Shown: in pieces, positions 50,874-63,170 of the stretch
How the letters are laid out: every line of letters starts with the position of its first letter
Position numbering within the stretch: the stretch's first letter is position 1
Origin: a virus
Reading direction: 5' to 3' (one strand)
Length of the DNA: 64,000 nt
Virus record (IMG/VR): IMGVR_UViG_3300014494_000005
Location: 186,001 to 250,000 of that record
Translations under genes and position numbers: made by a program
The notes under the pieces: generated by a model
The model's database searches: none
The model's input: only the letters and a program-made list of their open reading frames with translations
What the model was told of the DNA's origin: nothing

Positions 50874-51080
50874 ATGAGTAAATTATCAGAAATTTATACT
50901 GGGTGGAAAAATTTCACTTTTCCAAATCTTAAAACAGAAGAATTAGCAAAAAAAAGAATTGAAATTTGTGTTAACAATTGTGATAAATTAAATAAAAGAA
51001 ATTTCTGTAAACTTTGTGGCTGTTATATGCCCGCAAAAGTAAGAAGTCCTAAATCGCATTGTTTTTTAAAAAAATGGTAA
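50874..51080 (+). CDS. Small zinc-ribbon protein
   Basis: A 68-residue protein with CVNNCDKL...FCKLCGCYMPAKVRSPKSHC, giving a treble-clef-like set of Cys residues. Related small Cys-rich proteins are common next to tail genes in T4-like phages. Follows the fibre-like gene by two bases. Confidence 0.7.
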   Translation: MSKLSEIYTGWKNFTFPNLKTEELAKKRIEICVNNCDKLNKRNFCKLCGCYMPAKVRSPKSHCFLKKW

Positions 51081-51221
51081 TTAAATAGTATTTGTTGTAA
51101 CTACATATGAATCATCTAATTCTAATACATTGTTTTTTGATAATTCATTAAGTAACTCATTTTTTCTTTTATCAATTAATTCATTAACTTTATTTAATAT
51201 TTTTTTTCTCTCATTTGTCAT
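51081..51221 (-). CDS. Small hypothetical protein
   Basis: A 46-residue Lys/Asn/Glu-rich helical peptide (start NERKKILNKVNELIDKRKNE), starting two bases after the stop of 51224-51838 and therefore probably translated with it. Confidence 0.5.
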   Translation of the reverse strand: MTNERKKILNKVNELIDKRKNELLNELSKNNVLELDDSYVVTTNTI

Positions 51222-51223
51222 GA

Positions 51224-51838
51224 TTAGCAATAAGGAATATTTTGAATCTTATCATTCATTTCTCTTGTACGGATATCCAATTTAGTTTCTGTTCCAATAA
51301 AGTCTGCAGTATATTCCCTAATAAATAACATTTGTATTTTTTGTGGTGCTTTTTTGAATGCAATAAATTCTATTTCATCACCGTCTTCAGTAGATAATGT
51401 AACATTTATATCATTCCAATTTAATGAGTTAAACCATGATTCACCATATGGTGCAACATCATTACCACCCTTATCATAAAAACCATCTTTACTAATTGAA
51501 ATATTATCGCTATCGAAATTTAAATAAAATATAATTGGTTTTTTTTGTAGGTCATAAGTATATTGAATTTTCAAGTAATATTCAATTGTAAGTTTATTTG
51601 CATCATCTAAATCCTCGTCCCAATTTCCACCAATACGAGCATCAGCAACTTCTACAATTTTTATTTTATTTTTTTTACTTAAAAGTGAATCACAAATAAA
51701 TTGTTTTTGCATATCTTCATTTTTTAGCAAAGTAATGTCTTCCTGTCCTTTAAGATGTTCATCATTACCTAAAAAATCGAATTCTGTAATTACTTCATTA
51801 ATTATTTTTATGATTTTTTTATTCTTCATCAAAATCAT
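51224..51838 (-). CDS. Hypothetical protein, possibly capsid-targeted
   Basis: A 204-residue protein with an N-terminal amphipathic helix KKIIKIINEVITE ending in I-T-E, a possible prohead-protease site, and a beta-rich body (VEVADARIGGNWDEDLDDAN). ATGs at 51838 and 51829 are both possible. Late motif upstream. Function unknown. Confidence 0.55.
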   Translation of the reverse strand: MILMKNKKIIKIINEVITEFDFLGNDEHLKGQEDITLLKNEDMQKQFICDSLLSKKNKIKIVEVADARIGGNWDEDLDDANKLTIEYYLKIQYTYDLQKKPIIFYLNFDSDNISISKDGFYDKGGNDVAPYGESWFNSLNWNDINVTLSTEDGDEIEFIAFKKAPQKIQMLFIREYTADFIGTETKLDIRTREMNDKIQNIPYC

Positions 51839-51916
51839 TTTTTTATAAATACTAAATATATTATTTAAAAGTTGATGAATATCATCAAAAATATTGAAAT
51901 TATATTTACAATCTAT

Positions 51917-52080
51917 GTATTTATGAACAGAGAATCATTGCTTAATTAGTAATTAAGTTAGCTCTGAGAACAGGAATGATTTTTAAAAATTTATTGCCAG
52001 AAAGTGGTTATGTAAATTTTTAAGACTTGACTAAGAATTTTAAAAGTAATTGCATCACAATAAAAGTGATGCAATTTTTT
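51917..52080 (+). ncRNA. Candidate structured RNA ending in a terminator
   Basis: CAGAG (51928-51932) can pair with CTCTG (51962-51966), around a 7-bp hairpin CTTAATT/AATTAAG (51941-51957). AATCATT (51933-51939) can pair with AATGATT (51975-51981), which crosses the first stem and gives an H-type pseudoknot. A strong terminator closes the interval. There is no credible gene, only an 8-codon frame at 51924. The stems are short, so this remains a candidate. Confidence 0.3.
52049..52080 (+). terminator. Intrinsic terminator upstream of the tRNA leader
   Basis: ATTGCATCAC-AATAAAA-GTGATGCAAT followed by T residues; a perfect 10-bp stem. Confidence 0.85.
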
Positions 52081-52103
52081 ATAAAAATATTTTTCAATTT
52101 TTA

Positions 52104-52134
52104 TTTGTATTTATAATTTTATTGCATATATTTG
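52104..52134 (+). promoter_or_regulatory. Bacteroidetes-type promoter of tRNA leader 1
   Basis: TTTG (52104-52107), exactly 19 bases, TATATTTG (52127-52134): a full match to TTTG-N19-TAnnTTTG. Confidence 0.8.
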
Positions 52135-52171
52135 TAGTCATTTTGTTATTCATATTATGGATTTTTAGATT

Positions 52172-52246
52172 ATGAAAAATTTAATACATATTCAACCCCA
52201 ACCACAGCAACATCCACAGATGTCTGAATGGGGAAATTATGCTTAA
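52172..52246 (+). CDS. Leader peptide 1 (His/Gln/Pro-rich) of the tRNA-Pro-His-Gln attenuator
   Basis: A 24-codon frame with HIQPQPQQHPQ at residues 6-16, that is 2 His, 5 Gln and 3 Pro in 11 codons, then MSEWGNYA and stop. The three genes after the following terminator are tRNA-Pro, tRNA-His and tRNA-Gln. The codons for Glu-Trp-Gly near its end (GAATGGGG, 52226-52233) are complementary to the 5' arm of that terminator. A ribosome slowed on the His/Gln/Pro codons would leave this strand free and prevent termination. The peptide itself probably has no function. Confidence 0.8.
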   Translation: MKNLIHIQPQPQQHPQMSEWGNYA

Positions 52247-52306
52247 ATTTTTCGAAAGAAGTTTTAGGTTAATGTTGACCCCATTCGTAAGAGTGGGGTT
52301 TTTTTA
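52226..52306 (+). promoter_or_regulatory. Attenuator 1: antiterminator/terminator pair before tRNA-Pro
   Basis: Terminator: CCCCATTC (52279-52286), GTAA tetraloop, GAGTGGGG (52291-52298), then eight T. Alternative structure: GAATGGGG (52226-52233) pairs perfectly with CCCCATTC. The two structures exclude each other. tRNA-Pro starts about 10 bases behind the T run, so read-through is needed for the tRNAs to be made from this promoter. Confidence 0.75.
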
Positions 52307-52316
52307 TTATATATAT

Positions 52317-52401
52317 CGGGGTGTAGGTCTGTAGTTGGTAGCAGTCCTGCCTTGGAAGCAGGTGGAGAAATCCCTCGCACGTTCGAACCGTGTCACCCCG
52401 A
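52317..52401 (+). tRNA. tRNA-Pro (anticodon TGG)
   Basis: Acceptor CGGGGTG/CACCCCG, anticodon arm CCTGC-CTTGGAA-GCAGG, T-arm GCACG-TTCGAAC-CGTGT. The variable region is 14 bases with a possible GGA/TCC stem, unusual for tRNA-Pro. No CCA is encoded. It reads CCA and other CCN codons, as used in leader 1. Confidence 0.8.
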
Positions 52402-52511
52402 AGTGATTGATGTTAAATTACTTGCACGTAGTAATCACTGCATAACCAAAAGGTTAACTAAAAATTTAGCAAAGTTCTTTGAAATACCTAATAATAATAT
52501 ATAATTTATAT

Positions 52512-52583
52512 GGGATGATTGGTGTAGCGGTAGCATGCCAGATTGTGGTTCTGTCGGGGAGGTTTCAAATACCTCATCACCCC
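52512..52583 (+). tRNA. tRNA-His (anticodon GTG)
   Basis: Anticodon loop TTGTGGT. The acceptor has eight positions including the extra 5' G opposite C73, the hallmark of tRNA-His, with one A-C mismatch. T-arm GAGGT-TTCAAAT-ACCTC. No encoded CCA. Confidence 0.85.
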
Positions 52584-52642
52584 CAAATTCTCTAGTGATG
52601 TAATTAATATATTGCTGGTTTGAATATATTGAAACAATAAAT

Positions 52643-52729
52643 TGTTCTGTGATGAAATTGGCTAAACATGTCAGACTTTGACTCTGATGCTCTTTAGTGA
52701 GTTTGTAAGTTCGAATCTTACCAGAACAG
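52643..52729 (+). tRNA. tRNA-Gln (anticodon TTG), long variable arm
   Basis: Acceptor TGTTCTG/CAGAACA (7 bp), anticodon arm TCAGA-CTTTGAC-TCTGA, T-arm GTAAG-TTCGAAT-CTTAC. The variable region is about 17 bases with a CTC/GAG stem and the D-arm looks leucine-like, so the body is class II although the anticodon is that of Gln. Leader 1's Gln codons support the Gln reading. Confidence 0.75.
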
Positions 52730-52778
52730 CAATATTAATTTTTTTAATTATCTTTGTTAAAATTTTAAATTAATTATT

Positions 52779-53732
52779 ATGTCATATAATTTATTTCTTG
52801 ATGACTTCCGCAGTCCTATCGATTCTTTTTATTATTTAGGGAATCCAATATATAATATTCTTGATTGGAAAATTGTACGAAATTATGATGAATTTGTGAA
52901 AACGATTCAAGAAAATGGTATTCCAGAAACTATTAGTTTTGACCATGATTTGGAAAATTCTGAAGAGTGGATGGATATTATTGGATATGAAGGAATTTAC
53001 ATGGTTTCAAATTTTGGTCGTATTTTAAGAACAAAAAAATCAAAAGGTACAACAGGTAATAATATTTTAACTCCATTAAAAAACATATCTGGATTATATG
53101 TAACATTATATAATTGCGGTAAAAATATACACAAAAAAATTCATAGATTAGTTTTAGAATCATTTATGGGTATTAATAATGAAAAATCACAAGTTAATCA
53201 TATTGATGGAAATAGATGGAATAATCATATTAATAATTTAGAGTGGTGTACATCATCTGAAAATATATGGCATTCACATAATGTATTATATAGAGATTTT
53301 TCTGCATATGGTGAAAACCATAAAAATAGTATGACAGTATCTCAATATGATATAAATAATAATCTAATTAATATTTATGGTTCAGTTAATGAAGCAGGAA
53401 GGCAATTAAATATTAGTTTTTCGAACATTGCAAAATGTGCTAGAGGTGAAAGAAAAATTGCTGGTGGATTTATTTGGAAATATGAAAATCTCAAAGTAAC
53501 AATAAATACAAAAATTTCACACATTGAATATAAAGATTATGCTAAGAATTTCTTTATACCTAAATATGAAGAAAAAACTGGTTATCATTGTGCTAAATGG
53601 TTAATAGATTATTGCATTGACAATAAATTAGAATTACCAAAAACAATTTTAATACACTCAATGAATCCAGTTGGAAGTCGAAATATTAAATCATTATTTG
53701 ATAGTTATTTCAAATCACTTAATTTATCTTAA
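52779..53732 (+). CDS. Receiver-like (cREC) domain protein interrupted in frame by an HNH endonuclease
   Basis: A 317-residue protein. Residues 1-66 (NLFLDDFRSPID ... RNYDEFVKTI ... ISFDHDLENS) and about 250-317 (EKTGYHCAKWLIDYC ... ILIHSMNPVGSRNI) together make the small receiver-like domain known as cyclic-phosphate processing receiver (cREC). Between them sits a complete homing endonuclease: a NUMOD4 block (EEWMDIIGYEGIYMVSNFGR), an HNH block (QVNHIDGNRWNNHINNLEWC) and a NUMOD1-like helix-turn-helix. No intein splice residues or intron features are visible, so the endonuclease may be tolerated as an inserted domain. Confidence 0.8.
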   Translation: MSYNLFLDDFRSPIDSFYYLGNPIYNILDWKIVRNYDEFVKTIQENGIPETISFDHDLENSEEWMDIIGYEGIYMVSNFGRILRTKKSKGTTGNNILTPLKNISGLYVTLYNCGKNIHKKIHRLVLESFMGINNEKSQVNHIDGNRWNNHINNLEWCTSSENIWHSHNVLYRDFSAYGENHKNSMTVSQYDINNNLINIYGSVNEAGRQLNISFSNIAKCARGERKIAGGFIWKYENLKVTINTKISHIEYKDYAKNFFIPKYEEKTGYHCAKWLIDYCIDNKLELPKTILIHSMNPVGSRNIKSLFDSYFKSLNLS

Positions 53733-53735
53733 TTT

Positions 53736-54152
53736 TTATTTAACCCAAAATTTTCCTAATAATGTAATAATTGTGATTAGTATTGATATTCCCGCAACAA
53801 TGTATGCAATCATAGCATTTCCACCTGCTTTTATATTTTCAGATTTTTCGACTTTAATTGTAAGTGCATCAATTTTATCATTAGCATTTTTTAACAATAC
53901 TTCTGTCTCAATACGTGGCATTAATGTTCTCGACTGGTCACCAAGTTGTGCACGAAATTCATTAACACATTCAAAACGTTTTTCTGTTGCAACCTCTGCC
54001 TTATTAACAGCTAATTCCATTGCTTGATACCTTTGAGTTACACGTTCGTCTCTTTCAGCAAGCAATATTTTATAATGTTCATATTGATTTTTTAATACAA
54101 CATCATAATGCTCTTTAAGAGCTTCAAGCGTCCAAATTGTGTTATTTTCCAT
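53736..54152 (-). CDS. Coiled-coil protein with C-terminal membrane anchor
   Basis: A 138-residue protein: WTLEALKEHYDVVLKN start, long coiled coil (ERDERVTQRYQAMELAVNKA, KRFECVNEFRAQL), and a single C-terminal transmembrane helix (AYIVAGISILITIITLLG). This widespread phage family is often found near lysis genes, but its function is unproven. It is convergent with the cREC gene. Confidence 0.65.
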   Translation of the reverse strand: MENNTIWTLEALKEHYDVVLKNQYEHYKILLAERDERVTQRYQAMELAVNKAEVATEKRFECVNEFRAQLGDQSRTLMPRIETEVLLKNANDKIDALTIKVEKSENIKAGGNAMIAYIVAGISILITIITLLGKFWVK

Positions 54153-54250
54153 TAATTTATTAGTGTTAGATATTTATTAGCCATTTAATGTTAATAAATA
54201 CTTTTTAGAACGTCTAAAAATATTGTATATAAAAAATAATTTAAAAAAAG

Positions 54251-54281
54251 TTTGTATATATTGTAACATTTTATATCTTTG
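54251..54281 (+). promoter_or_regulatory. Bacteroidetes-type promoter of tRNA leader 2
   Basis: TTTG (54251-54254), 19 bases, TATCTTTG (54274-54281): again a full match to TTTG-N19-TAnnTTTG. Confidence 0.8.
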
Positions 54282-54321
54282 CAACGTATTTAGAATAAAA
54301 GAAACTATTTTTAATTTTAAA

Positions 54322-54414
54322 ATGATGAAAAAAGTACTCGACATATTGGTATCAGAGATGGCAGTTGTCCTATTATGGGCAGATGCAGAAGATACATTAT
54401 ATTCAGTCGGGTAA
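54322..54414 (+). CDS. Leader peptide 2 of the large tRNA operon attenuator
   Basis: A 30-codon frame starting ATG-ATG. Residues 12-24 read EMAVVLLWADAED, all amino acids of downstream tRNAs (Glu, Met, Ala, Val, Leu, Trp, Asp). Overall 22 of 30 residues belong to that set. At the codon level it uses GAT/GAC, GAA, GAG, GTA, CTC, CTA, TTA, TTG, TGG and GCA, matching tRNAs with anticodons GTC, TTC, CTC, TAC, AAG, TAG, TAA, CAA, CCA and TGC in the cluster. Its last codons (CAGTCGGG, 54404-54411) pair with the terminator's 5' arm. Confidence 0.8.
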   Translation: MMKKVLDILVSEMAVVLLWADAEDTLYSVG

Positions 54415-54486
54415 TATTTATTACAAATAACACCTCCTTTCTTAAATGAAAAATCCCGACTGCTAAAATGGTCGGGATTTTTTTTT
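54404..54486 (+). promoter_or_regulatory. Attenuator 2: antiterminator/terminator pair before tRNA-Asp
   Basis: Terminator: AAATCCCGAC (54451-54460) and GTCGGGATTT (54471-54480), a perfect 10-bp stem followed by a T run. Alternative: CAGTCGGG (54404-54411) with CCCGACTG (54455-54462), 8 bp. The two cannot coexist. Between them lies CACCTCCTTTCT (54431-54442), identical to the usual 3' tail of 16S rRNA. Confidence 0.75.
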
Positions 54487-54490
54487 AGAA

Positions 54491-54520
54491 TTTGTAACAA
54501 ATAAAATTTTTCTTTGTATA
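54491..54520 (+). promoter_or_regulatory. Promoter, TTTGTAACA-N22-TATA class, before tRNA-Asp
   Basis: TTTGTAACA at 54491-54499 and TATA at 54517-54520, spacing 22. It lies downstream of attenuator 2, so the tRNAs could also be expressed without passing the attenuator. The following TTCTTTGACATGTTGGAA resembles sequences near Bacteroidetes rRNA operons. Confidence 0.5.
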
Positions 54521-54545
54521 CTGTTCTTTGACATGTTGGAAATTC

Positions 54546-54615
54546 GTTCTCGTAGTATAATGGTTAGTATGTATCACTGTCTATGATAAGGAGGGGTTCG
54601 AATCCCACGGGGACG
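54546..54615 (+). tRNA. tRNA-Asp (anticodon GTC)
   Basis: Acceptor GTTCTCG/CGGGGAC with G-T pairs, discriminator G as in tRNA-Asp, D-arm GTATAATGGTTAGTAT, anticodon arm TATCA-CTGTCTA-TGATA. The T-stem is weak (3-4 bp). Confidence 0.85.
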
Positions 54616-54686
54616 GCAATGATTATTAATGTGTTATAATAATTATCTGTTATATTAAATTATATTAAAAATGAAATAATTAATTT

Positions 54687-54770
54687 GCTGCATTATACAA
54701 GTGGTTAAAGTGGCTTGCCCTTCAAGCAAGTGCCGAAAGGCTTCGCAGGATTCGAATTCCTCATGCAGTA
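54687..54770 (+). tRNA. tRNA-Glu (anticodon TTC), class II-like body
   Basis: Acceptor GCTGCAT/ATGCAGT, anticodon arm CTTGC-CCTTCAA-GCAAG (C at position 33), long variable arm with a GCC-GAAA-GGC hairpin, T-arm with TTCGAAT. The body looks serine-like, while the anticodon reads GAA. GAA in leader 2 supports the Glu assignment, but charging cannot be predicted. Confidence 0.65.
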
Positions 54771-54797
54771 CTGAAATATAAATTTAAAATTTAAATT

Positions 54798-55187
54798 ATG
54801 AAAAATTTGTATATTAATGCAACTCACAGTACACCCGCAGTTTTTTTTAATATTAATAAAGGTATTCTTACAATAACAGGAAAATCATTTCCTGAGAATT
54901 CCTCAATGTTTTTTGATGATATTGATAAAGCATTAGATGAATTTATTAAAGAACATTCTAATGTTGATTTAACAATTACTTGTGAATTTGAATATATTAA
55001 TTCATTATCAAATAAAGCAGTTTTTAATATATTAGAAAAAGCAGCAAAATCTCTTAATAATGTTATAGTTGTTTGGAAATATGAAGAAAACGATGAAGAT
55101 ATGAAAGAGCAGGGAGAATTTTTTGAAACATCTTTTAAAACTAAAATTCATTTTCATTATAAACATTTTTTAATACAACCAGAATGA
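54798..55187 (+). CDS. SiaC-like regulatory protein (DUF1987)
   Basis: A 129-residue protein. KNLYINATHSTPAVFFNINK, then GILTITGKSFPENSSMFFDD, match the N-terminal core of the SiaC/DUF1987 family ('TPev.f....g.l.i.GrS.PENs..Fy'). In Pseudomonas, SiaC is a phosphoprotein partner that controls a diguanylate cyclase. It sits between two tRNA-Glu genes, 10 bases before the second. A phage role in host signalling is inference. Confidence 0.75.
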   Translation: MKNLYINATHSTPAVFFNINKGILTITGKSFPENSSMFFDDIDKALDEFIKEHSNVDLTITCEFEYINSLSNKAVFNILEKAAKSLNNVIVVWKYEENDEDMKEQGEFFETSFKTKIHFHYKHFLIQPE

Positions 55188-55192
55188 TAAAT

Positions 55193-55265
55193 GCTCGGTT
55201 CGTCTAATGGTTAGGACAAAAGATTCTCATTCTTTTAAATATGTTTTCGATTAACATACCGAGTA
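55193..55265 (+). tRNA. tRNA-Glu (anticodon CTC)
   Basis: Acceptor GCTCGGT/ACCGAGT, typical Glu D-arm GTCTAATGGTTAGGAC, anticodon arm AAAGA-TTCTCAT-TCTTT, T-arm ATGTT-TTCGATT-AACAT, discriminator A. Reads GAG. Confidence 0.88.
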
Positions 55266-55343
55266 CAGAAATAAATATGATGTTGGAAATACTAACATTA
55301 TCATATAAAATTTGATTTAATGCTGGCTTTTATCAACAAATAT

Positions 55344-55418
55344 ATTCCCTTAACTCAGATGGGTCAGAGTGTTTGCCTTACAAGCAAAATGTCGTAGGTT
55401 CGAAGCCTACAGGGAATA
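55344..55418 (+). tRNA. tRNA-Val (anticodon TAC)
   Basis: Acceptor ATTCCCT/AGGGAAT, D-stem ACTC/GAGT, anticodon arm TTTGC-CTTACAA-GCAAA, T-arm GTAGG-TTCGAAG-CCTAC, discriminator A. Confidence 0.92.
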
Positions 55419-55503
55419 CAAAAGATTGTAGTGCCAAATACAATCATAATATCGCCTTAATTACCGATATTTAATATTTATCGGTTAAAAAGGTGATACC
55501 TTT

Positions 55504-55591
55504 CTCTCAGTGTTGTAACTGGTAGCCAAGCTGGTTTAAGAAACCAGTGCGAAATAATAGTAGCGTGTCGGTTCGAGTCCGACTTGAGAGA
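55504..55591 (+). tRNA. tRNA-Leu (anticodon AAG)
   Basis: Acceptor CTCTCAG/TTGAGAG, anticodon arm CTGGT-TTAAGAA-ACCAG, a 19-base class II variable arm and T-arm GTCGG-TTCGAGT-CCGAC. A34 is rare in bacterial tRNA-Leu; if converted to inosine it would read CTT, CTC and CTA. Confidence 0.82.
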
Positions 55592-55599
55592 CAATAAAC

Positions 55600-55674
55600 G
55601 TGAATGTAGCCAAATGGTTAATAGGCAATCGATTTAGACTCGAAAATTTGCTGGTTCGACTCCAGTCATTCACA
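55600..55674 (+). tRNA. tRNA-Leu (anticodon TAG), short variable loop
   Basis: Acceptor GTGAATG/CATTCAC, D-arm GCC-GGC, anticodon loop TTTAGAC on a TCGA/TCGA stem, T-arm GCTGG-TTCGACT-CCAGT. The anticodon reads CTA (Leu), but the variable loop is short (class I), unlike normal tRNA-Leu. CTA occurs in leader 2. Confidence 0.7.
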
Positions 55675-55740
55675 CAAAGATATTTTTTAAAAAACAATAA
55701 TCTTTCCTAATATTTCATGTATTTATATTAAATATAATAT

Positions 55741-56469
55741 ATGAAATATACAAAAGAATTTTTAGAACCAATTGTTCTTAAAAGCAAAGCAATTAGTGAA
55801 GTATTACGTTATTTAAAATTAAATGCTAATGGTGGTAATCATGCACATATTTCAAAAACCATAAAAAAATATAATATTGATACATCACATTTTCTTGGAC
55901 AAAGTTGGAATAGAGGTAAATCGCCACGAAATAGACATACCATAGAAAGTTTCATTAAACTTGTTTTAAAATTAAATGGTATGGGATGGCAAAGTCATCA
56001 AATAAAATTAAAATTATTTGAATTAAATTTAAAAGAAAGAAAATGTGGAATTTGTGGACAAAATGAAATATGGAATAATAATAAACTTGGTTTAGAGTTA
56101 GACCATATTAATGGAATACACAATGATAATAGATTAGAAAATTTAAGAATTTTATGTCCAAATTGTCATTCACAAATGCCAACACAAGGTGTTAGAAATA
56201 TTCATAATGGAAAAATAATTAACATTAAAGTTCATAAAGAAAAAATAATAAAAAATAAAATAATTAATATTTGTAATTGTGGTAAAAAAATAAAAAATAA
56301 TTCTAAAACATGTGTTAATTGCTATTCATTAAAACAAAGAAAAGTTAATAGACCATCATTTGAAACACTTCAAGAAGAAGTTAAAACATTAGGATATACT
56401 GGAACTGGAAGAAAATATGGTGTGAGTGATAATACGATAAGAAAATGGATTAAATTTTACACGAAATAA
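55741..56469 (+). CDS. HNH homing endonuclease
   Basis: A 242-residue protein. The HNH core is KCGICGQNEIWNN then LELDHINGIHNDNRLENLRI and LCPNCHSQMPT, giving a two-Cys-pair zinc site and the catalytic His of DHINGI. A second zinc-knuckle (CNCGKK...CVNC) and a C-terminal helix-turn-helix (GRKYGVSDNTIRKWIK) should bind the target. It lies between tRNA genes, with GTATTTATA 13 bases before its ATG, so it has its own late-type promoter. Confidence 0.9.
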   Translation: MKYTKEFLEPIVLKSKAISEVLRYLKLNANGGNHAHISKTIKKYNIDTSHFLGQSWNRGKSPRNRHTIESFIKLVLKLNGMGWQSHQIKLKLFELNLKERKCGICGQNEIWNNNKLGLELDHINGIHNDNRLENLRILCPNCHSQMPTQGVRNIHNGKIINIKVHKEKIIKNKIINICNCGKKIKNNSKTCVNCYSLKQRKVNRPSFETLQEEVKTLGYTGTGRKYGVSDNTIRKWIKFYTK

Positions 56470-56472
56470 AAT

Positions 56473-56548
56473 GGGGTATGGGACTGCTAGGGTTGGTCAT
56501 CTCGTCTGCACCGAGAAAATCAGGAGGATTCGAATTCCTCATGCTCCA
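56473..56548 (+). tRNA. tRNA-Ala (anticodon TGC)
   Basis: Acceptor GGGGTAT/ATGCTCC contains a G3-T70 wobble pair, the identity signal of tRNA-Ala. Anticodon arm TCTCG-TCTGCAC-CGAGA (C at position 33), T-arm GAGGA-TTCGAAT-TCCTC. Confidence 0.88.
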
Positions 56549-56587
56549 CATTATCAAATAGTTATATAGATAATCACAATAAAATAT

Positions 56588-56661
56588 GGCACAGTACTCC
56601 AATTGGTAGAGAGAAACGGCTTAAACCCGTTAAAGTGTGAATTCGAATTTCACTTGTGCTA
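56588..56661 (+). tRNA. tRNA with anticodon TAA (Leu), class I body
   Basis: Acceptor GGCACAG/TTGTGCT with terminal wobble pairs, D-stem CTC/GAG, anticodon arm AACGG-CTTAAAC-CCGTT, variable loop of only five bases, T-arm GTGAA-TTCGAAT-TTCAC. The anticodon reads TTA, but the short variable loop is atypical for Leu; a second, canonical tRNA-Leu(TAA) lies at 58962. Confidence 0.7.
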
Positions 56662-56683
56662 CAAAATAAATTAATTATAATAT

Positions 56684-56755
56684 ACGTCTGTCGTCTAATG
56701 GTTAAGATAACGGCTTCCAACCCCGTGGATGAGGTTTCGATTACTTCCAGACGTG
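56684..56755 (+). tRNA. tRNA-Trp (anticodon CCA)
   Basis: Acceptor ACGTCTG/CAGACGT with A1-T72 and discriminator G, as in bacterial tRNA-Trp. Anticodon arm ACGGC-TTCCAAC-CCCGT has a C-C mismatch next to the loop; a shifted fold would give TCC (Gly), but the acceptor identity elements and the Trp codon of leader 2 favour Trp. T-arm GAGGT-TTCGATT-ACTTC. Confidence 0.7.
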
Positions 56756-56782
56756 CTAAAATAAAAAATAAATATTATATTA

Positions 56783-56814
56783 TTTGCATATATTTATATA
56801 ATAAACTAAATTTG
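56783..56814 (+). promoter_or_regulatory. Bacteroidetes-type promoter
   Basis: TTTG (56783-56786), 20 bases, TAAATTTG (56807-56814), eight bases before the ATG of the next gene. Confidence 0.6.
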
Positions 56815-56821
56815 TCAAATT

Positions 56822-57550
56822 ATGTTAATAATAAATTACAATAAAAAAGATTATTACGATGGTGTTGTTGGTACGATGGGTATCGATAAAACACTTGTTT
56901 ATGACCGTAAAATAATTGAGGTTGAAGAAAAAAAAATTCCATCAATATTTCAAAGAAAGGGATTTTCTTGGAAAAAAAGTAAAGATTCACCTTTTTTAAA
57001 TATTGAAAATCATACAATAAAAAATGAACAACATAAAAATTATCAAAATTGTAGTTCTTTTATTATTGGATTTTGTGGAAAACTATATATTGGTTGGAAA
57101 TTATATAGCGAAAACAGAAAAGTTTATCCAGAAAAACTTACAACTACAATTACATATGATTTTGATTTAATAAAAACAATTATTGATAATAAAGGTTGGT
57201 ATGGAAACCTTGAAGAGCAGTATAATTATATTAAAAATTATAATTCACTTCAATTATTTAGAGATTTTAAAGCACCTGTTTTTATTTATGATAGTGATTA
57301 TAATAGAATAAATATTGGTCATTATCATAAACGTAATGAAAAACTTTTTATTAATCCAATTTTAAGCGATTATCATTTTTATAAAATATTTGATAGTTTT
57401 CAAGCATTTCAAGAAATAAGTATGTTTATGGGTGGTGTGCTTGGTAAAGGCGAAAAAGAAATTATTGAAGTGGCTGATAAATATAAAATTACTCAACATG
57501 GTTTTGATTATAAATGGAGTTTTAGAAAAAAATCTGAAAAGAATAAATGA
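56822..57550 (+). CDS. Conserved phage protein of unknown function
   Basis: A 242-residue protein. The start YYDGVVGTMGIDKTLVYDR and the end AFQEISMFMGGVLGKGEKEI ... ITQHGFDYKWSFRK are a pattern that I know from many large phages (hypothetical proteins of this kind), without assigned function. It begins a three-gene overlapping operon leading to the tmRNA. Confidence 0.7.
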   Translation: MLIINYNKKDYYDGVVGTMGIDKTLVYDRKIIEVEEKKIPSIFQRKGFSWKKSKDSPFLNIENHTIKNEQHKNYQNCSSFIIGFCGKLYIGWKLYSENRKVYPEKLTTTITYDFDLIKTIIDNKGWYGNLEEQYNYIKNYNSLQLFRDFKAPVFIYDSDYNRINIGHYHKRNEKLFINPILSDYHFYKIFDSFQAFQEISMFMGGVLGKGEKEIIEVADKYKITQHGFDYKWSFRKKSEKNK

Positions 57551-57813
57551 AACAAGAATTGCATAAAATATTTATAATTCCTGCTCGATTTATTAAACAA
57601 ACTAAAGATAATAAATATGTTATTCGATGTCTAATTGAAAAAAATATTACTGAAGACCGTATATTTGATGATAATTCACTTAAAGGATTAATAAATCCTA
57701 AGTATTTATTAATCGGAATAATGACAGGAGTTGGATATATGCAAATAAATTTTGTTGATGCTAATGATTATGAAAAAATGTTTAATGTAAAATGGAAAAT
57801 TTTAGTAAAATAA
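57547..57813 (+). CDS. Hypothetical protein
   Basis: An 88-residue basic-hydrophobic protein overlapping its neighbours by 4 and 22 bases. No domain recognised. Confidence 0.6.
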   Translation: MKQELHKIFIIPARFIKQTKDNKYVIRCLIEKNITEDRIFDDNSLKGLINPKYLLIGIMTGVGYMQINFVDANDYEKMFNVKWKILVK

Positions 57814-57986
57814 GCGATGAAATAATATCACAACTTAAATCTATATGTTATAGTGGTGATTTATCTGATATTGGTAATGAAATTGGTATTGTAATTGCTA
57901 AATATTTTGATAAAGATAATACTGTTGATGATTTCATTCATGGTTTAAAACATGGAATATCATTAACTGATGGAACACATGGTTAA
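57792..57986 (+). CDS. Small hypothetical protein
   Basis: A 64-residue acidic helical protein (NFSKISDEIISQLKSICYSG ... DDFIHGLKHGISLTDGTHG). Ends 23 bases before the tmRNA. Confidence 0.55.
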   Translation: MENFSKISDEIISQLKSICYSGDLSDIGNEIGIVIAKYFDKDNTVDDFIHGLKHGISLTDGTHG

Positions 57987-58009
57987 TATAATAAGTTCTT
58001 TAAAATAAT

Positions 58010-58372
58010 GGGGATGAATGGATTTGACTGTATGTAGAAAAATGATGTAAGCAAGTAGTAGTTGAATCGGACTACTTTTAAAAAGGTTCAAAACAATAAA
58101 TGCAGAAGACATTATGTCTATTCCTACTTCCTTGACAAAAGGAAATAGCGTATTTGTAAAGAGTGCTGAACTTGCAATTGCGTAATAGGAAAAAAATAAA
58201 CAGCAAAAAACTTCCAAGTCAGAAGGGAAGTAAAAACAATTCTGGACAGTTTTGTAGTTGTTCTGGAAAAATACAATTAACATTTTGCTGATTTAGGAAA
58301 ATCAAATAAACTTGTAGAAAACTTATTAATCACATTGCAACACCGGGGAATCGATGCCCCGCATCTCCACCA
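58010..58372 (+). ncRNA. ssrA: tmRNA (trans-translation RNA), CCA encoded
   Basis: A 363-base transfer-messenger RNA that would rescue stalled ribosomes. The 5' end GGGGATG pairs with CATCTCC near the 3' end, followed by ACCA; the T-arm is CCGGGG-AATCGAT-CCCCG-like. The tag reading frame most likely resumes at 58150 (GTA after AAATAGC) and runs 11 codons, VFVKSAELAIA, to TAA TAG at 58183-58188. The tag ends in LAIA instead of the usual LAA. Confidence 0.88.
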
Positions 58373-58376
58373 AATA

Positions 58377-58425
58377 TTTTTCATCTCCACAGTATTTATA
58401 TTAAAATATTGATGGAGATGAAAAA
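58377..58425. repeat. 13-bp inverted repeat around the start of the endonuclease gene
   Basis: TTTTTCATCTCCA (58377-58389) and TGGAGATGAAAAA (58413-58425) are perfect reverse complements; AGTATTTATA lies between them and the right arm covers the first codons. CATCTCCAC also occurs at the tmRNA 3' end (58362-58370). Confidence 0.8.
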
Positions 58426-58960
58426 TTTAAAAAAAAGAAAAACTAAATTAATTAAATGCGATAATTGTGGAAATGATTTTGAAAAATCGATATCCGAAAT
58501 AAAAAGAAATAAAAATCATTTTTGTTCATTAAGATGTTCAGCAATCCATCGTAATGATATCAATCGAAAAAATTTTGAAGGATATATAGGAAATCCAAAA
58601 TTTTTAATTGCAAATAATCATAAAGATGAATATACAGGTTTTCGTGATTTTATTAGAAGAGCAAAACAAAGAAATAAATTAGGGAATTTAACATTAATTG
58701 ATTTAAAAGAACAATGGCAAAAACAAAATGGAATTTGTCCTTATACTGGAATACAATTAGAATTGCCAAATTATTCTAAAACAAAAAAATTTTCAATACA
58801 AGAAGCAGCATCTTTAGATAGAATAAATTCAAATAAACCATATGAAAAAGATAATATTGTTTTTGTAAGTACACCAATTAATTATATGAAAAATACGATG
58901 ACAGAAGAAGAAACAATTGCATTTTGTAAAAAAATTGCATTATTTTGGAATAATAAATAA
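58412..58960 (+). CDS. HNH-type homing endonuclease
   Basis: A 182-residue endonuclease. N-terminal zinc site CDNCGNDF...CSLRCSAIH, then a helical part (GFRDFIRRAKQRNK) and the nuclease core NGICPYTGI ... ASLDRINSNKPYEKDNIVFVS ... INYMKN, a form seen in free-standing phage HNH proteins. The ATG at 58412 follows AGTATTTATA by 11 bases. It stands directly behind the tmRNA gene. Confidence 0.85.
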   Translation: MEMKNLKKRKTKLIKCDNCGNDFEKSISEIKRNKNHFCSLRCSAIHRNDINRKNFEGYIGNPKFLIANNHKDEYTGFRDFIRRAKQRNKLGNLTLIDLKEQWQKQNGICPYTGIQLELPNYSKTKKFSIQEAASLDRINSNKPYEKDNIVFVSTPINYMKNTMTEEETIAFCKKIALFWNNK

Positions 58961-58961
58961 T

Positions 58962-59048
58962 GGCGAAGTGATGAAATAGGTAGTACATGCAGGTCTTAAA
59001 AACCTGTGAACAGTAATGTTCGTGTGGGTTCGATTCCCATCTTCGCTA
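58962..59048 (+). tRNA. tRNA-Leu (anticodon TAA)
   Basis: Acceptor GGCGAAG/CTTCGCT, leucine-like D-arm ATGAAATAGGTAGTACAT, anticodon arm CAGGT-CTTAAAA-ACCTG, class II variable arm with GAACA/TGTTC, T-arm GTGGG-TTCGATT-CCCAT, discriminator A. Confidence 0.92.
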
Positions 59049-59092
59049 CGAATAAATTAATTAAAGTATTTATATAAAAACTTATAATAACA

Positions 59093-59257
59093 ATGAATAT
59101 ATTAATTATAAATCAATCAACACCAATTAACTATCCAATAATAATTGTACCTGTTGGTTGTCAATTTAATATACCTAATAGAATAATGTGTAGTGGTGGT
59201 TTTCTTGTTTATAATAAACCATCTGAAAAAATATTAATTAATTATGGCAAATATTAG
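59093..59257 (+). CDS. Small hypothetical protein
   Basis: A 54-residue protein with a hydrophobic centre (NYPIIIVPVGCQFNIPN) and a strong late motif (AGTATTTATATA, from 59065) 20 bases before the ATG. Function unknown. Overlaps the next small gene by 14 bases. Confidence 0.55.
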   Translation: MNILIINQSTPINYPIIIVPVGCQFNIPNRIMCSGGFLVYNKPSEKILINYGKY

Positions 59258-59360
59258 AAAACCACATCCAAAAGAAGATGATTGTGGATGTGGAAAATCA
59301 GTTAAAATAACTGAAAGAAAAAAAATTGAATATAGACGAATTATAAAGAAAAGAGGATAA
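59244..59360 (+). CDS. Small basic protein
   Basis: A 38-residue Lys/Arg-rich peptide with CGCG (DDCGCGKS). It ends one base before tRNA-Leu(CAA). Coupled to the previous frame by overlap. Confidence 0.45.
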   Translation: MANIRKPHPKEDDCGCGKSVKITERKKIEYRRIIKKRG

Positions 59361-59443
59361 CTCCTTGTGATGAAATTGGTAGCACGTGCTCGCCTCAAAA
59401 GCGAGTGCCTTCGGGCGTGTCGGTTCGACTCCGACCAAGGAGA
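59361..59443 (+). tRNA. tRNA-Leu (anticodon CAA)
   Basis: Acceptor CTCCTTG/CAAGGAG perfect, D-arm ATGAAATTGGTAGCACGT, anticodon arm CTCGC-CTCAAAA-GCGAG, class II variable arm (GCC-TTCG-GGC), T-arm GTCGG-TTCGACT-CCGAC. Confidence 0.95.
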
Positions 59444-59462
59444 CAAATAGAAGGGAAATTTT

Positions 59463-59957
59463 ATGTATATGGTATTACAGATTCCCATGCGTGAACAGAA
59501 TTATGATTTTGATTGTAGTCTTGCAGTAGCATGGTCGTACTTAAAACATTCTAAAATAAAAGTTGATTATAATACACTTTTAAAAATATCAAAAATTTCA
59601 CCAATTGATGGATTATGTCCAGAAAAATTAGTTATTTTACTAAAAAAATTTGGTTTAGAAACCAATTTAGAAGAACGTAAAAATATTAAATATTTAAAAA
59701 ATCAAATAATTACTAAAAAACCAGTAATTGTTCTTTTACAAGCAAATAAAGAATATAAGAAATCTTGGAAAAATACTTGGACTCACGGACATTATTGCAT
59801 TATATTTGGTTTTGATGACTTTCGGGTATTTATTTATGACCCATATATTGGTGGAATTAAATTATTCGCATATGACCAATTTAATAATCGTTGGCATGAT
59901 GAATGGAATGGTAAAAAATATATTAAGTCAGTAATAATAAAAAATGAAAATTTATGA
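59463..59957 (+). CDS. Papain-like cysteine peptidase, C39 type
   Basis: A 164-residue protein. Cys in QNYDFDCSLAVAWSYLKH corresponds to the DCG.a catalytic segment, and THGHYCIIFGFDDFRVFIYDPYIGG supplies His and Asp in the spacing of C39/papain-fold peptidases. No transporter domains or substrate are encoded nearby. It could process a phage or host peptide; the activity is inferred from the three-residue pattern. Confidence 0.7.
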   Translation: MYMVLQIPMREQNYDFDCSLAVAWSYLKHSKIKVDYNTLLKISKISPIDGLCPEKLVILLKKFGLETNLEERKNIKYLKNQIITKKPVIVLLQANKEYKKSWKNTWTHGHYCIIFGFDDFRVFIYDPYIGGIKLFAYDQFNNRWHDEWNGKKYIKSVIIKNENL

Positions 59958-60118
59958 ATTTTGGATTAAGAAAAAATAGTAAAATAAAATTCAAAGAAAT
60001 ACCTGAAGAAATTGATGAATCTGAAATTGATTTAGATAATCCAGAAGCAATGGAATTAACATGGAAAAGCATTGAATGGTCATTGAAAAAACATAAAGAT
60101 ATAATCTCAAAAATATAA
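59954..60118 (+). CDS. Small hypothetical protein
   Basis: A 54-residue acidic protein (KFKEIPEEIDESEIDLDNPE), starting in a four-base ATGA overlap with the peptidase stop. It could be a partner or inhibitor of the peptidase, by position only. Confidence 0.5.
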   Translation: MNFGLRKNSKIKFKEIPEEIDESEIDLDNPEAMELTWKSIEWSLKKHKDIISKI

Positions 60119-60121
60119 AAT

Positions 60122-60181
60122 ATGAAAAAAATTTTGAATTCTTGTAACGCACTAAAGCGTAACAAGAAAAATGGGAAATAA
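60122..60181 (+). CDS. Very short frame with internal hairpin, possible leader
   Basis: A 19-codon frame overlapping the next start by 11 bases. A stem-loop (TTCTTGTAACGC/GCGTAACAAGAA, 60139-60168, one mismatch) lies within it, ending two bases before the ATG of the next gene. Translation of this frame would unfold the hairpin, so it may govern translation downstream. Confidence 0.35.
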   Translation: MKKILNSCNALKRNKKNGK

Positions 60182-60500
60182 AAATTTAGTAAAAACAACC
60201 ACAAATCGTGGCGAATTCAATCGTGCATATAAATTGCATCTTGAACGAATAGGAAAAATTCATTGTTCATACTGTGGTTTTCATCTTGGTGAAAATAATG
60301 GCAAAAAATGGTATGGTGGAATTATTTACGATGACATGGAAACTTGTCATGGTAAAAGAAAAGGAAATAATACAAGATTTCCAAACTGGAAATTGGTTTC
60401 TAAAAATAGAAAACAATGGATGCGAAAACCAATTAAAATTGTTGAAGAACATAGAATTGGACACAAAAGAACATATGTTGAGATTAAATTCTCAACATAA
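60171..60500 (+). CDS. Conserved hypothetical protein with zinc-type Cys pair
   Basis: A 109-residue basic protein with CSYCGFH and a later CH (ETCHGKRKG), plausibly a small zinc-binding nucleic-acid protein. The N-terminus (RGEFNRAYKLHLERIGKIH) and GKKWYGG look conserved. Ends three bases before tRNA-Met. Confidence 0.6.
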   Translation: MGNKNLVKTTTNRGEFNRAYKLHLERIGKIHCSYCGFHLGENNGKKWYGGIIYDDMETCHGKRKGNNTRFPNWKLVSKNRKQWMRKPIKIVEEHRIGHKRTYVEIKFST

Positions 60501-60503
60501 TTT

Positions 60504-60574
60504 AGCGATGTCATTCAACGGTAGGATATCTCTCTCATAAGGAGCAAATACGAGTCCGATTCTCGTCATCGCTA
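60504..60574 (+). tRNA. tRNA-Met (anticodon CAT)
   Basis: Acceptor AGCGATG/CATCGCT perfect, anticodon loop CTCATAA on a four-pair stem, T-arm ACGAG-TCCGATT-CTCGT with an unusual C in place of the second T. The A1-T72 pair and the absence of three G-C pairs argue against an initiator. A CAT anticodon could also be tRNA-Ile2. Confidence 0.8.
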
Positions 60575-60580
60575 CAAATA

Positions 60581-60604
60581 AAAAAATTCGTCATTTGACG
60601 AATT
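60581..60604. terminator. Terminator between tRNA-Met and the convergent gene
   Basis: AATTCGTCA-TT-TGACGAATT, a perfect 9-bp stem preceded by an A run, so it works best for the minus-strand gene 60626-61072; a T run on the plus side is lacking. Confidence 0.55.
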
Positions 60605-60625
60605 CAGAATTCCAACATGTTTATT

Positions 60626-61072
60626 TTATTGAAAATTTACTTTGCAAGTTTGATTTTTGAAATCAAATTCTAAATCCTTAACATATAATGATTTACCTAA
60701 TATAAGTGAAGTTTTTTCGTTAATAACGAATTTCCATTTAGTTTCTTCGATATTTTTTTGCGATTTTTGTTCTATTTCATCTGAATGAATATTATGCATT
60801 TCCATATTATAAGTTCCTTCAAGTTTTTCTATACTAATAATAAAATTTTCAATACCCATATCATTTAACCAAAATGAAACTTGCCATGTGATTATAATAT
60901 TACTTTCTGTAACATCAGCATCAAATTCTGTTGAAAAACCACTATAATTATAAAAATACACATTTTTTACGAGTTGTTTAAAATTAAAATTATCACCACC
61001 TATAACATATGATTCATTAATTACATTCTTTTCAATTTCTTCATTTACCACTTTTTTTATAGAACTCACCAT
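60626..61072 (-). CDS. Hypothetical protein, possibly capsid-targeted
   Basis: A 148-residue protein. The N-terminal helix KKVVNEEIEKNVINE ends in I-N-E followed by Ser, a possible prohead-protease cut site. The body is a beta sandwich-like sequence without recognised family. Late motif 20 bases upstream. Confidence 0.55.
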   Translation of the reverse strand: MVSSIKKVVNEEIEKNVINESYVIGGDNFNFKQLVKNVYFYNYSGFSTEFDADVTESNIIITWQVSFWLNDMGIENFIISIEKLEGTYNMEMHNIHSDEIEQKSQKNIEETKWKFVINEKTSLILGKSLYVKDLEFDFKNQTCKVNFQ

Positions 61073-61121
61073 AAAAACACAATTTTATATAAATACTCTA
61101 TGTTTTCTTAAATTTCTTTTA

Positions 61122-61180
61122 TACATTTGCACATATTAAAACAAAAGATTTGTAACATTATTACAAAAAATTCGTATAAA
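61122..61180 (+). promoter_or_regulatory. Two overlapping promoter-like elements
   Basis: TACATTTG at 61122-61129 (Bacteroidetes type) and TTTGTAACA at 61149-61157 with TATA at 61175 (22-base spacing). The second lies so close to the ATG at 61186 that its transcript would be almost leaderless. Confidence 0.5.
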
Positions 61181-61185
61181 TTAAA

Positions 61186-62049
61186 ATGGTTTATAATTAT
61201 AATAAACAACATTGTTGGCAATATGATATTAGGTTAAATAATTTAACCAATGATTTAAAACAAGCAAATATAACTCTTGATGAATCGAAAAATTTAAAAG
61301 TATCTGATTTTAAATTTCAATTTGAAGAAAAAGATTTATGTTTTCAAGAAATTAAAAGTTTTATTGAAAAACATGAATGGTTGGGTAGAGTAAGTTTATA
61401 TCCAACACATATTTTTACTGCACGATATAATGGAATTTTAGCAGGTGTAGTAATTATTGATATGCCAAGTGTGTTTTCGAAATTATTGGGAGAAGAAACA
61501 AAAAAGATTGAAAGATTAATAAGCAGAGGTGCTTGTATTAGTTGGTCGCCCAAAAATTTAGGTAGTTCTTTGATTATGTTTGCAATTAATTGGATGGTAA
61601 AAAATACACAATATCGTTTATTTGTTGCTTATTCAGATGTTGAAGCTAAAGAATTAGGCACAATTTATCAAGCATGTAATTTTTATTATTTGGGTAAGAA
61701 ATCTGGTGCAAAAAATCAATATAAAATTGAAACCGGAAGATGGGTATCCGATAGATATTTTAGAGCAAGGTCTGTTTATAAAAGACTTGCAAAAGAAAAT
61801 GAAATTATTTGGCATGATGAATGGCAAAACGGAGATAGTGTAATGTTTGATAAAATGCCGGAAGAAATTGCATTACAAATAAGAAAACTTTCAAAGGACT
61901 ATTTATTGTCCTGTGAAAGTAGAGAAATGAAACCAAAACATAAATATGCATATGTTTTGGGTAAAAATAATACTGAAACAAAAAAATTAAGAAGAATATT
62001 TATAGAAAGAAACAAAATTTATTCATATCCAAAAGAAAGGGGAAATTAA
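61186..62049 (+). CDS. GNAT-fold protein, possibly Mom-like DNA modification enzyme
   Basis: A 287-residue protein. ARYNGILAGVVIIDMPSVFS, then ERLISRGACISWSPKNLGSS and LGTIYQACNFYYLGKKSG follow the GNAT acetyltransferase order. The set 'RGACISWSPKNL.S.LI..' is one that I associate with phage proteins related to Mu Mom (adenine methylcarbamoylation). If so, it protects phage DNA from restriction; it could instead be a plain N-acetyltransferase. One base before the RNA ligase. Confidence 0.55.
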   Translation: MVYNYNKQHCWQYDIRLNNLTNDLKQANITLDESKNLKVSDFKFQFEEKDLCFQEIKSFIEKHEWLGRVSLYPTHIFTARYNGILAGVVIIDMPSVFSKLLGEETKKIERLISRGACISWSPKNLGSSLIMFAINWMVKNTQYRLFVAYSDVEAKELGTIYQACNFYYLGKKSGAKNQYKIETGRWVSDRYFRARSVYKRLAKENEIIWHDEWQNGDSVMFDKMPEEIALQIRKLSKDYLLSCESREMKPKHKYAYVLGKNNTETKKLRRIFIERNKIYSYPKERGN

Positions 62050-62050
62050 A

Positions 62051-63142
62051 GTGAAATTACTTGAAAAAGTTGATTGGAAAATATTAAATAACTATATTGA
62101 TAATAGTCTCATTATAGCAAATAAACACCCAAATTATGAAATTTGGATTTTGAACTATTCAGTAAAAGCTCAATCAAAAAAATTTTGGGACGAATATACT
62201 ATGTCTTGTCGTGGATTGGTTGTTGATGTTGAAGGTAATATTTTAGCACGTCCATTTATGAAATTTAAAAATTATGAAGAATATGATTCTTCTGAAATTG
62301 ATTTATATATGACTCAAGAATTTGAAATATTTGAAAAAGTCGATGGTTCACCTATTATCTTATTTTACTATGCACCACGTATGGAATGGATTGTGGCAAG
62401 TAGAGGTTCATTTATTTCAGAACAATGTATTGAAGCACAAAAAATGATTGATATTAACATATACGATAAATTGAATAAAAATTGTACTTTTTTATTTGAA
62501 GTATTATATCCAGAAAATCGTATTGTTGTTGATTATGGTGATAGAAGAGAACTTGTATTACTTGGAAGAATTGTAACTGAAACCGGAATTGAAGCATATT
62601 ATAATGAATTAGTTGCACAATATTCAAATTATTTTTCAATTGTTAAGAAATATGATATAAATAATATTAAAAATCTTAAAGATTTACAAAAACTTGAAGA
62701 AGAAAATCGTGAAGGATTTGTTGTAAGATTTAAAGATGGTTTTAGAGTTAAAGTTAAGTTTGCAGAATATTGTAGATTACATGTTATTTTAACAAATGTT
62801 TCAAACTTAACAATTTGGGAACATTTAATGAATAATTATGATTTTGATTCATTACTTGACAGAGTTCCAGATGAATTTTATAATTGGTTAAAGAAAACAA
62901 CAAAAATTATACAAACTGATTTTAATGAAATTGAAAGATTGTCATTAAAAGAATTTGTAAGAATTTACCATGTTAATGGAATTACAAATCGTAGAGAATT
63001 TGCTATGGAAGCATTAAAGACAGAATATCGTTCAATATTGTTTAAGTTATATGACAAAAAAAACTACGATGATATTATTTGGAAACAAGTAAGACCCGTT
63101 TACAGCAAACCATTTAAAGATGGTTTTGAATATAGTGTTTAA
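62051..63142 (+). CDS. rnlA: T4 Rnl1-type RNA ligase
   Basis: A 363-residue ATP-dependent RNA ligase. The adenylated Lys is K96 in FEKVDGSP; motif III is TFLFEVLYPENRIV, motif IV REGFVVRF, motif V RVKVKF, followed by the C-terminal helical domain typical of Rnl1, which recognises tRNA. In T4 the enzyme reseals tRNA cut by host anticodon nucleases. A GTG at 62051 is the best start. The neighbouring tRNA array fits a tRNA-repair role. Confidence 0.9.
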   Translation: MKLLEKVDWKILNNYIDNSLIIANKHPNYEIWILNYSVKAQSKKFWDEYTMSCRGLVVDVEGNILARPFMKFKNYEEYDSSEIDLYMTQEFEIFEKVDGSPIILFYYAPRMEWIVASRGSFISEQCIEAQKMIDINIYDKLNKNCTFLFEVLYPENRIVVDYGDRRELVLLGRIVTETGIEAYYNELVAQYSNYFSIVKKYDINNIKNLKDLQKLEEENREGFVVRFKDGFRVKVKFAEYCRLHVILTNVSNLTIWEHLMNNYDFDSLLDRVPDEFYNWLKKTTKIIQTDFNEIERLSLKEFVRIYHVNGITNRREFAMEALKTEYRSILFKLYDKKNYDDIIWKQVRPVYSKPFKDGFEYSV

Positions 63143-63170
63143 AAAGCGAAGAATTTTCTTCGCTTTTTTT
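63141..63170 (+). terminator. Intrinsic terminator after the RNA ligase gene
   Basis: AAAGCGAAGAA-TTT-TCTTCGCTTT followed by a T run. Confidence 0.9.

Follow-up and report, generated by a model that had tools for sequence, protein, structure and literature searches.

The tRNA operons and their leaders

We analysed a 64,000-nucleotide (nt) stretch of AT-rich DNA, referred to as the window, which covers bases 186001-250000 of the 348,923-base virus record IMGVR_UViG_3300014494_000005. The record represents an uncultured large phage (the 349-kb phage) whose host is probably a member of the Bacteroidota, since the promoters described here have the Bacteroidota form. The element under study opens a long transfer RNA (tRNA) operon, operon 2, and consists of a promoter, a leader open reading frame (ORF) of 30 codons and an intrinsic terminator followed by a T run (Table 1). 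Region 2, in the last three codons ahead of the leader stop, is the complement of region 3, which is common to the terminator, where it pairs with region 4, and to an antiterminator, of which region 2 is the 5′ arm. An initial annotation had named the promoter, the 30-codon frame, regions 2 and 3 and the terminator, and all were found as it had described them. The order that it gave for the tRNA genes, running from Asp to Trp and then Leu, Leu and Met, was upheld by ARAGORN and Rfam, with the exception of the Ala gene, which neither program called and which was recognised by eye and by synteny. The list of amino acids in leader 2, EMAVVLLWADAED, matches the downstream set Asp, Glu, Val, Leu, Ala, Trp and Met.

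Within the record, the reading covered the tRNA regions. Four tRNA clusters together serve all 20 amino acids, and each opens with a Bacteroidota-type promoter, a leader of 24-42 codons and a mutually exclusive antiterminator/terminator pair; in all four, an 8-nt region 2 is exactly complementary to the terminator 5′ arm, the complement in operon 4 slightly overrunning the hairpin stem. In operon 1, also within the window, the list IQPQPQQHPQ matches the Pro, His and Gln set. Two further operons lie just past the window. At genome position 251.6 kb, leader MFTFGTYYYGKKSYKKQLMRIGNAVFKIQC stands upstream of Lys, Tyr and Lys genes, and its list YYYGKKSYKK matches Lys and Tyr. At 258.5 kb, leader MMKTLTTNIFSSISTTTSRIGRTIFCSNFIGRNSNVSGILFS stands upstream of Thr, Thr, Cys, Asn, Ile, Ser, Ser, Phe, Gly, Met, Asn, Thr, Arg and other genes, and its list TTNIFSSISTTTSRIGRTIFCSNFIGRN matches Thr, Cys, Asn, Ile, Ser, Phe, Gly and Arg; the 31 bases of the operon 2 promoter recur identically before this leader 3 (genome 258458). 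The few remaining tRNAs of the record, at 134 kb and 283 kb, are isolated.

Correspondence between leaders and tRNA genes

The initial annotation had proposed that one leader covers the amino acids of all the tRNAs downstream, and that the rate of such overlap by chance be computed. When amino acids were dealt randomly to the four operons, a mean of 34.2 leader residues (standard deviation (sd) 7.4) fell in the set of their own operon, compared to 77 of the 122 observed, and none of 200,000 permutations was as high; the true leader-operon pairing also ranks best of the 24 possible pairings. Related contigs (about 40) were gathered via two leader-architecture patterns and via the RNA ligase, which is encoded between the tRNA operons and whose best matches in the annotated phage collection are about 35% identical, the named relatives not being close. 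In all, 47 non-redundant elements were chosen by structure and position only. In their sensing stretches (residues 12-24 in leader 2), 471 of the 754 residues (62%) belong to the operon's own set, compared to 138/748 (0.184) and 106/746 (0.142) for the two alternative reading frames of the same DNA, and relabelling of the amino acids never gave so high a value (0/5,000).

A structural scan for a terminator, a region 2 and an ORF, which was blind to residues and tRNAs, gave 33 strict matches in 360 kb of the phage and its relatives. Each of the 33 has a tRNA no more than 1.5 kb downstream, a condition shared by only 10.8% of strand positions in the window plus L004. These results bear on the possibility that short frames and hairpins of AT-rich DNA were picked out by chance: the first reading was made by eye, and the promoter pattern alone is no commoner than chance within the window. 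The permutations, the frame control, the structural scan and the independent contigs exclude such a coincidence, to which we give a vanishingly small probability.

The four leader types recur in the related contigs with diverged sequence and preserved composition, each ahead of matching tRNAs. Among the 22 distinct class-2 leaders (for example VVAVDLLWADAEDM, AETLVALLWAVDEDM, MVADLLWLDAEDM and LMLVALLWVDDAEE), the order of residues varies and the set is constant; where two leaders differ, both residues belong to the set in 511 of 604 pairs, compared to a fraction of 0.405 expected from single-nucleotide changes, a result that speaks for composition rather than for the fold of a peptide or a motif for arrest. 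In class 4, the sensing stretch changes length in multiples of three, as translated frames do, and the leader alignments hold in-frame length changes and synonymous changes, so that the leaders may be translated. Alternatively, the leader might encode a micropeptide that has a function or causes arrest, and agree with the tRNAs only incidentally. A conserved short ORF ahead of a terminator would also fit leaders of the nascent-chain arrest type, and the cores of classes 1 and 4 (QPQPQQHPQ and KSYKK) are well conserved; however, class-2 and class-3 residues vary in order and identity while the set is kept, and the four mutually unrelated peptides, like six others from a distant phage, each correspond to the tRNAs of their own operon. 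A micropeptide is thus very improbable as the explanation.

This distant phage, of 372 kb, was reached via the class-1 pattern and divides its tRNAs differently. Its leaders came from the blind scan or, in two cases, were read upstream of the remaining clusters (Table 1), and 73 of their 170 residues belong to their own sets (permutation mean 29.5, sd 6.0; 0/200,000 as high). An unchanged leader in front of a changed tRNA set, which the initial annotation had named as evidence against its proposal, was sought among the relatives; the reverse was found, a changed partition accompanied by changed leaders. Together with the permutations, the frame control and the profile of residue positions given below, the relatives and the 372-kb phage bear out the proposal that one leader covers the amino acids of its operon. 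No such leader precedes the tRNAs of the cultured distant relative Tenacibaculum phage pT24, which has few of them, or those of the RNA-ligase relatives at 34-41%. Scans of bacterial genomes gave no case with the class-1 pattern and no credible case with the class-2 pattern, which had three isolated matches (Marivita, a Nitriliruptoraceae metagenome-assembled genome and Serinibacter).

Proposed attenuation of the tRNA operons

We then considered where the set residues lie relative to region 2. For codons 9-29 nt ahead of region 2, their fraction lies mostly in the range 0.68-0.83 (0.70-0.83 at 9-20 nt); closer in, it falls to 0.36 (6-8 nt) and then to 0.17 (3-5 nt). The match thus stops about 9 nt ahead of the antiterminator, a distance that the footprint of a ribosome would call for. 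The downstream reach of a ribosome that has stalled on a codon in its A site is some twelve bases, which puts the end of the list near the point at which a stall would start to cover region 2. For leader 2, the sensing stretch has its final set codon 13 nt ahead of region 2, which is itself directly followed by the stop codon. The regulatory codons are thus placed such that a stalled ribosome would leave region 2 free and a finishing ribosome would cover it, in a leader ORF enriched in product-related codons and followed by mutually exclusive 2:3 and 3:4 pairings, as in an attenuator. Folding gave -13.6 to -21.5 kcal/mol for the 2:3 pairings, which rival the 3:4 hairpins (-12.1 to -16.6 kcal/mol) and can form ahead of the transcription of region 4; a 1:2 pairing is visible in the free leaders of operons 2 and 3. 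The scan required regions 2 and 3 to be complementary over 6 nt, and in 46 of the 47 elements they are so over 7 nt or more, compared to about 1.6% in shuffles; the pairs differ between elements, yet are complementary in each.

The same parts might also act through translational or polarity effects, or as an insulating terminator, the list of codons setting the rate of translation rather than switching the terminator. Antitermination is here deduced from the DNA sequence, which leaves room for such a function, but complementarity between regions 2 and 3 is seen in each of the four operons and in almost every relative, and the run of set residues stops at the very point from which a stalled ribosome would leave region 2 free. 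We consider this explanation to be quite improbable.

It is very likely, in our view, that each phage tRNA operon is under ribosome-mediated transcription attenuation and that its leader is a test strip for the operon's own tRNAs. RNA polymerase would start at the promoter, with a ribosome translating the leader behind it. When all the listed amino acids are available on tRNA, the ribosome would reach the stop codon and cover region 2, leaving region 3 to pair with region 4, so that the terminator would form and the tRNA genes would stay silent. When any listed aminoacyl-tRNA is scarce, the signal being an uncharged or missing tRNA, the ribosome would stall upstream, region 2 would pair with region 3, and the polymerase, meeting no terminator, would enter the tRNA genes and supply the missing tRNAs. 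The scarcity might arise if host tRNAs were cleaved, if the supply were depleted or if demand were mismatched, and host tRNA cleavage is an attractive candidate trigger, by analogy, because phage tRNAs rescue phages from such defences. Since the product would refill the sensed tRNA pool, the circuit would be a homeostat, exerting negative feedback on decoding capacity, with the 20 amino acids shared out among four leaders.

Several points weigh against attenuation. About 38% of the residues in the sensing stretches lie outside the set, and the shuffle counts overstate the significance because the relatives are not independent. Full-length folding without a ribosome favours the terminator, and antitermination would therefore rely on co-transcriptional folding. 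The class-4 region 2/3 pairs are nearly invariant and hence give little covariation. Furthermore, the final Leu, Leu and Met genes of operon 2 may escape control, since the operon is a long one that includes protein genes and may have a promoter within it.

The leaders hold many codons that are rare in the phage (CTC, 1.3% of Leu; ACG, 2.5% of Thr; GAG, 3.2% of Glu), and the mix of Leu codons that had been pointed out in leader 2 is present as CTC, TTG, CTA, TTA and TTA, CTA making up 3.5% of the phage Leu codons. When synonymous codons were permuted among the leaders, the observed per-leader numbers of distinct codons (364 compared to 325.5, sd 5.1) and of Watson-Crick codons (166 compared to 147.7, sd 4.2) were both higher, differences that relatedness inflates. 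Rare codons are also enriched in out-of-set leader residues and in region 2, perhaps partly from the pairing constraint. Because the leaders are rich in rare codons everywhere, the match of their codons to individual isoacceptors is only suggestive; the earlier claim that leader 2 holds a codon for each downstream anticodon thus stands for amino acids and is suggestive codon by codon, and the sensing of single isoacceptors by the leaders is plausible. With more reserve than for attenuation itself, we favour the view that the virus meters decoding across the whole code, its leaders testing every amino acid, partly codon-wise, and switching on the set that fails, for example after an attack by a host anticodon nuclease.

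Other features were noted in the tRNA regions (Table 1). The transfer-messenger RNA (tmRNA) gene may be a member of operon 2, although a possible separate promoter lies at 56783-56814; a tmRNA gene within the tRNA region is also kept in relatives L028, L029, L030 and L032. In a nucleotide search of named phages, the matches listed cover the tmRNA and HNH-gene parts of the query, and none of them the leader. The CAT-anticodon tRNA of operon 3 may be a tRNA-Ile2 for ATA; relatives carry Ile(tat) in operon 3, and leader 3 has several ATA codons. One tRNA in the Asn/His/Thr operon of the 372-kb phage was called with the anticodon TTA and would decode TAA, a stop codon. A gene resembling peptidyl-tRNA hydrolase 2 was found in five phages, phage pT24 among them, and in each of the five its reading frame carries a TAG at codon 3 to 5. 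At least four of the five encode a CTA-anticodon (suppressor) tRNA. The TAG looks like a conserved readthrough switch or a sensor for suppressor tRNA.

Table 1. Features of the tRNA operons, of the 372-kb phage leaders and of neighbouring genes (window positions unless a contig is named).
Feature	Position	Strand	Basis or remarks
Promoter of operon 1	52104..52134	+	
Leader ORF 1, MKNLIHIQPQPQQHPQMSEWGNYA	52172..52246	+	
Region 2 of leader 1, GAATGGGG	52226..52233	+	complement of CCCCATTC in leader 1 terminator
Terminator of leader 1	52277..52300	+	
tRNA-Pro(tgg)	52316..52402	+	ARAGORN
tRNA-His(gtg)	52513..52584	+	ARAGORN
tRNA-Gln(ttg)	52643..52730	+	ARAGORN
HNH-type endonuclease gene	52779-53732		between operon tRNA genes; phrog_59 match
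Promoter of operon 2, TTTG-N19-TATCTTTG	54251..54281	+	sequence read
Leader ORF 2, MMKKVLDILVSEMAVVLLWADAEDTLYSVG	54322..54414	+	composition conserved in class 2
Region 2, CAGTCGGG	54404..54411	+	
Terminator stem-loop (regions 3:4)	54450..54481	+	
Region 3, CCCGACTG	54455..54462	+	
tRNA-Asp(gtc)	54545..54617	+	ARAGORN, Rfam
tRNA-Glu(ttc)	54687..54770	+	Rfam only, weak (34.5 bits); anticodon by eye
tRNA-Glu(ctc)	55193..55266	+	ARAGORN
tRNA-Val(tac)	55344..55419	+	ARAGORN
tRNA-Leu(aag)	55504..55592	+	ARAGORN
tRNA-Leu(tag)	55600..55675	+	ARAGORN
HNH-type endonuclease gene	55741-56469		between operon tRNA genes; nucleotide similarity to T4-like HNH genes
tRNA-Ala(tgc)-like gene, weak	56473..56548 (about)	+	by eye; Ala(tgc) at equivalent place in relatives
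tRNA-Leu(taa)	56588..56662	+	ARAGORN
tRNA-Trp(cca)	56684..56756	+	ARAGORN
tmRNA gene	58010..58372	+	Rfam
HNH-type endonuclease gene	58409-58960		between operon tRNA genes; by eye
tRNA-Leu(taa)	58962..59049	+	ARAGORN
tRNA-Leu(caa)	59361..59444	+	ARAGORN
tRNA-Met(cat)	60504..60574	+	Rfam match; anticodon by eye
Protein resembling Mom-like DNA modification proteins	61186-62049		adjoins RNA ligase
CAT-anticodon tRNA of operon 3	L004:10258-10331		
372-kb phage leader QSRFQVVFFVQQVQ			ahead of Gln, Phe, Arg, Val, Arg; blind scan
372-kb phage leader NIHINTNTHKHNTT			ahead of Asn, Asn, His, His, Thr, Thr, Thr; blind scan
372-kb phage leader KKSISIKIKK			ahead of four Lys genes; blind scan
372-kb phage leader LSLCLCLLLSNC			ahead of Leu, Cys, then four more Leu genes; blind scan
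372-kb phage leader PMGGYPCAADADYG, GTG start			ahead of Asp, Gly, Tyr, Tyr, Met, Pro, Ala; read upstream of remaining cluster
372-kb phage leader NWSSRRRSSSRFTCSW			ahead of Ser, Arg, Trp; read upstream of remaining cluster
tRNA with called anticodon TTA, 372-kb phage	L130:13635	-	
TAG-bearing peptidyl-tRNA hydrolase 2-like gene	L004:19420-19752		genome ~269.4 kb
TAG-bearing peptidyl-tRNA hydrolase 2-like gene	L138:74-385	-	
TAG-bearing peptidyl-tRNA hydrolase 2-like gene	L033:1014-1328	-	
TAG-bearing peptidyl-tRNA hydrolase 2-like gene	L132:7254-7562	-	
TAG-bearing peptidyl-tRNA hydrolase 2-like gene	L141:2384-2683		

Comparison with known attenuators and phage tRNAs

Attenuation controls the enterobacterial biosynthetic operons trp, his, leu, thr, ilvGMEDA, ilvBN and pheA (PMC1183508). 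By analogy, the phage leaders appear to follow the logic of the trp and his attenuators, with which they share a leader ORF of regulatory codons whose end holds region 2, 2:3 and 3:4 pairings that exclude each other, a terminator with a T run and, in operons 2 and 3, a 1:2 pairing. The resemblance is structural only, and the Rfam amino-acid leader families (Trp, His, Leu and Thr leaders) gave no match to the phage leaders. In contrast to the biosynthetic attenuators, the phage elements are viral, their output is tRNAs rather than enzymes, each leader lists two to nine amino acids, and several leaders divide the 20 between them.

In Escherichia coli, the ilvGMEDA leader covers Leu, Val and Ile, and the thr leader covers Thr and Ile, so that there, too, several amino acids of one operon are sensed by a single leader. 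The phage leaders differ in that they list up to nine amino acids, which are biosynthetically unrelated and linked only by the co-transcribed tRNA genes. The initial annotation had set leader 2 against single-amino-acid leaders; its breadth stands, whereas multi-amino-acid leaders as such are already known, and hence the novelty lies in the tRNA output and the scale. Uncharged tRNA also governs translation-machinery genes in aminoacyl-tRNA synthetase operons, through the pheST attenuator and T-box leaders. The phage output, however, is tRNA genes, and the sensor would be a translating ribosome and not a tRNA-binding RNA; no Rfam covariance-model match to a T-box was found in window positions 51000-64000.

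The presence of tRNAs in phages has long called for an explanation (PMC10264068). Phage tRNAs can counter host tRNA-cleaving defences by replacing the lost host tRNAs (PMC10264068, PMC11555353), as the present ones might; rescue in those cases needs a strong phage tRNA promoter, whereas here a sensor would switch the tRNAs on when needed. In the literature searched, which left most subscription journals and preprints outside its scope, we found no phage tRNA operon under attenuation, and the control of expression of phage tRNA arrays is little described there. The leaders seem to state which tRNA pools are expected to run short, a shortage answered by making those tRNAs, and ideas of codon compensation and defence evasion therefore become directly testable; the leaders could also report the charging and loss of tRNAs during infection. 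As far as we have found, these would be the first attenuators to yield the very tRNA that they sense and the first set to divide the whole amino-acid alphabet. In summary, the mechanism would be of a known kind, whereas its output, its breadth and its division of the code are, as far as can be told, new.

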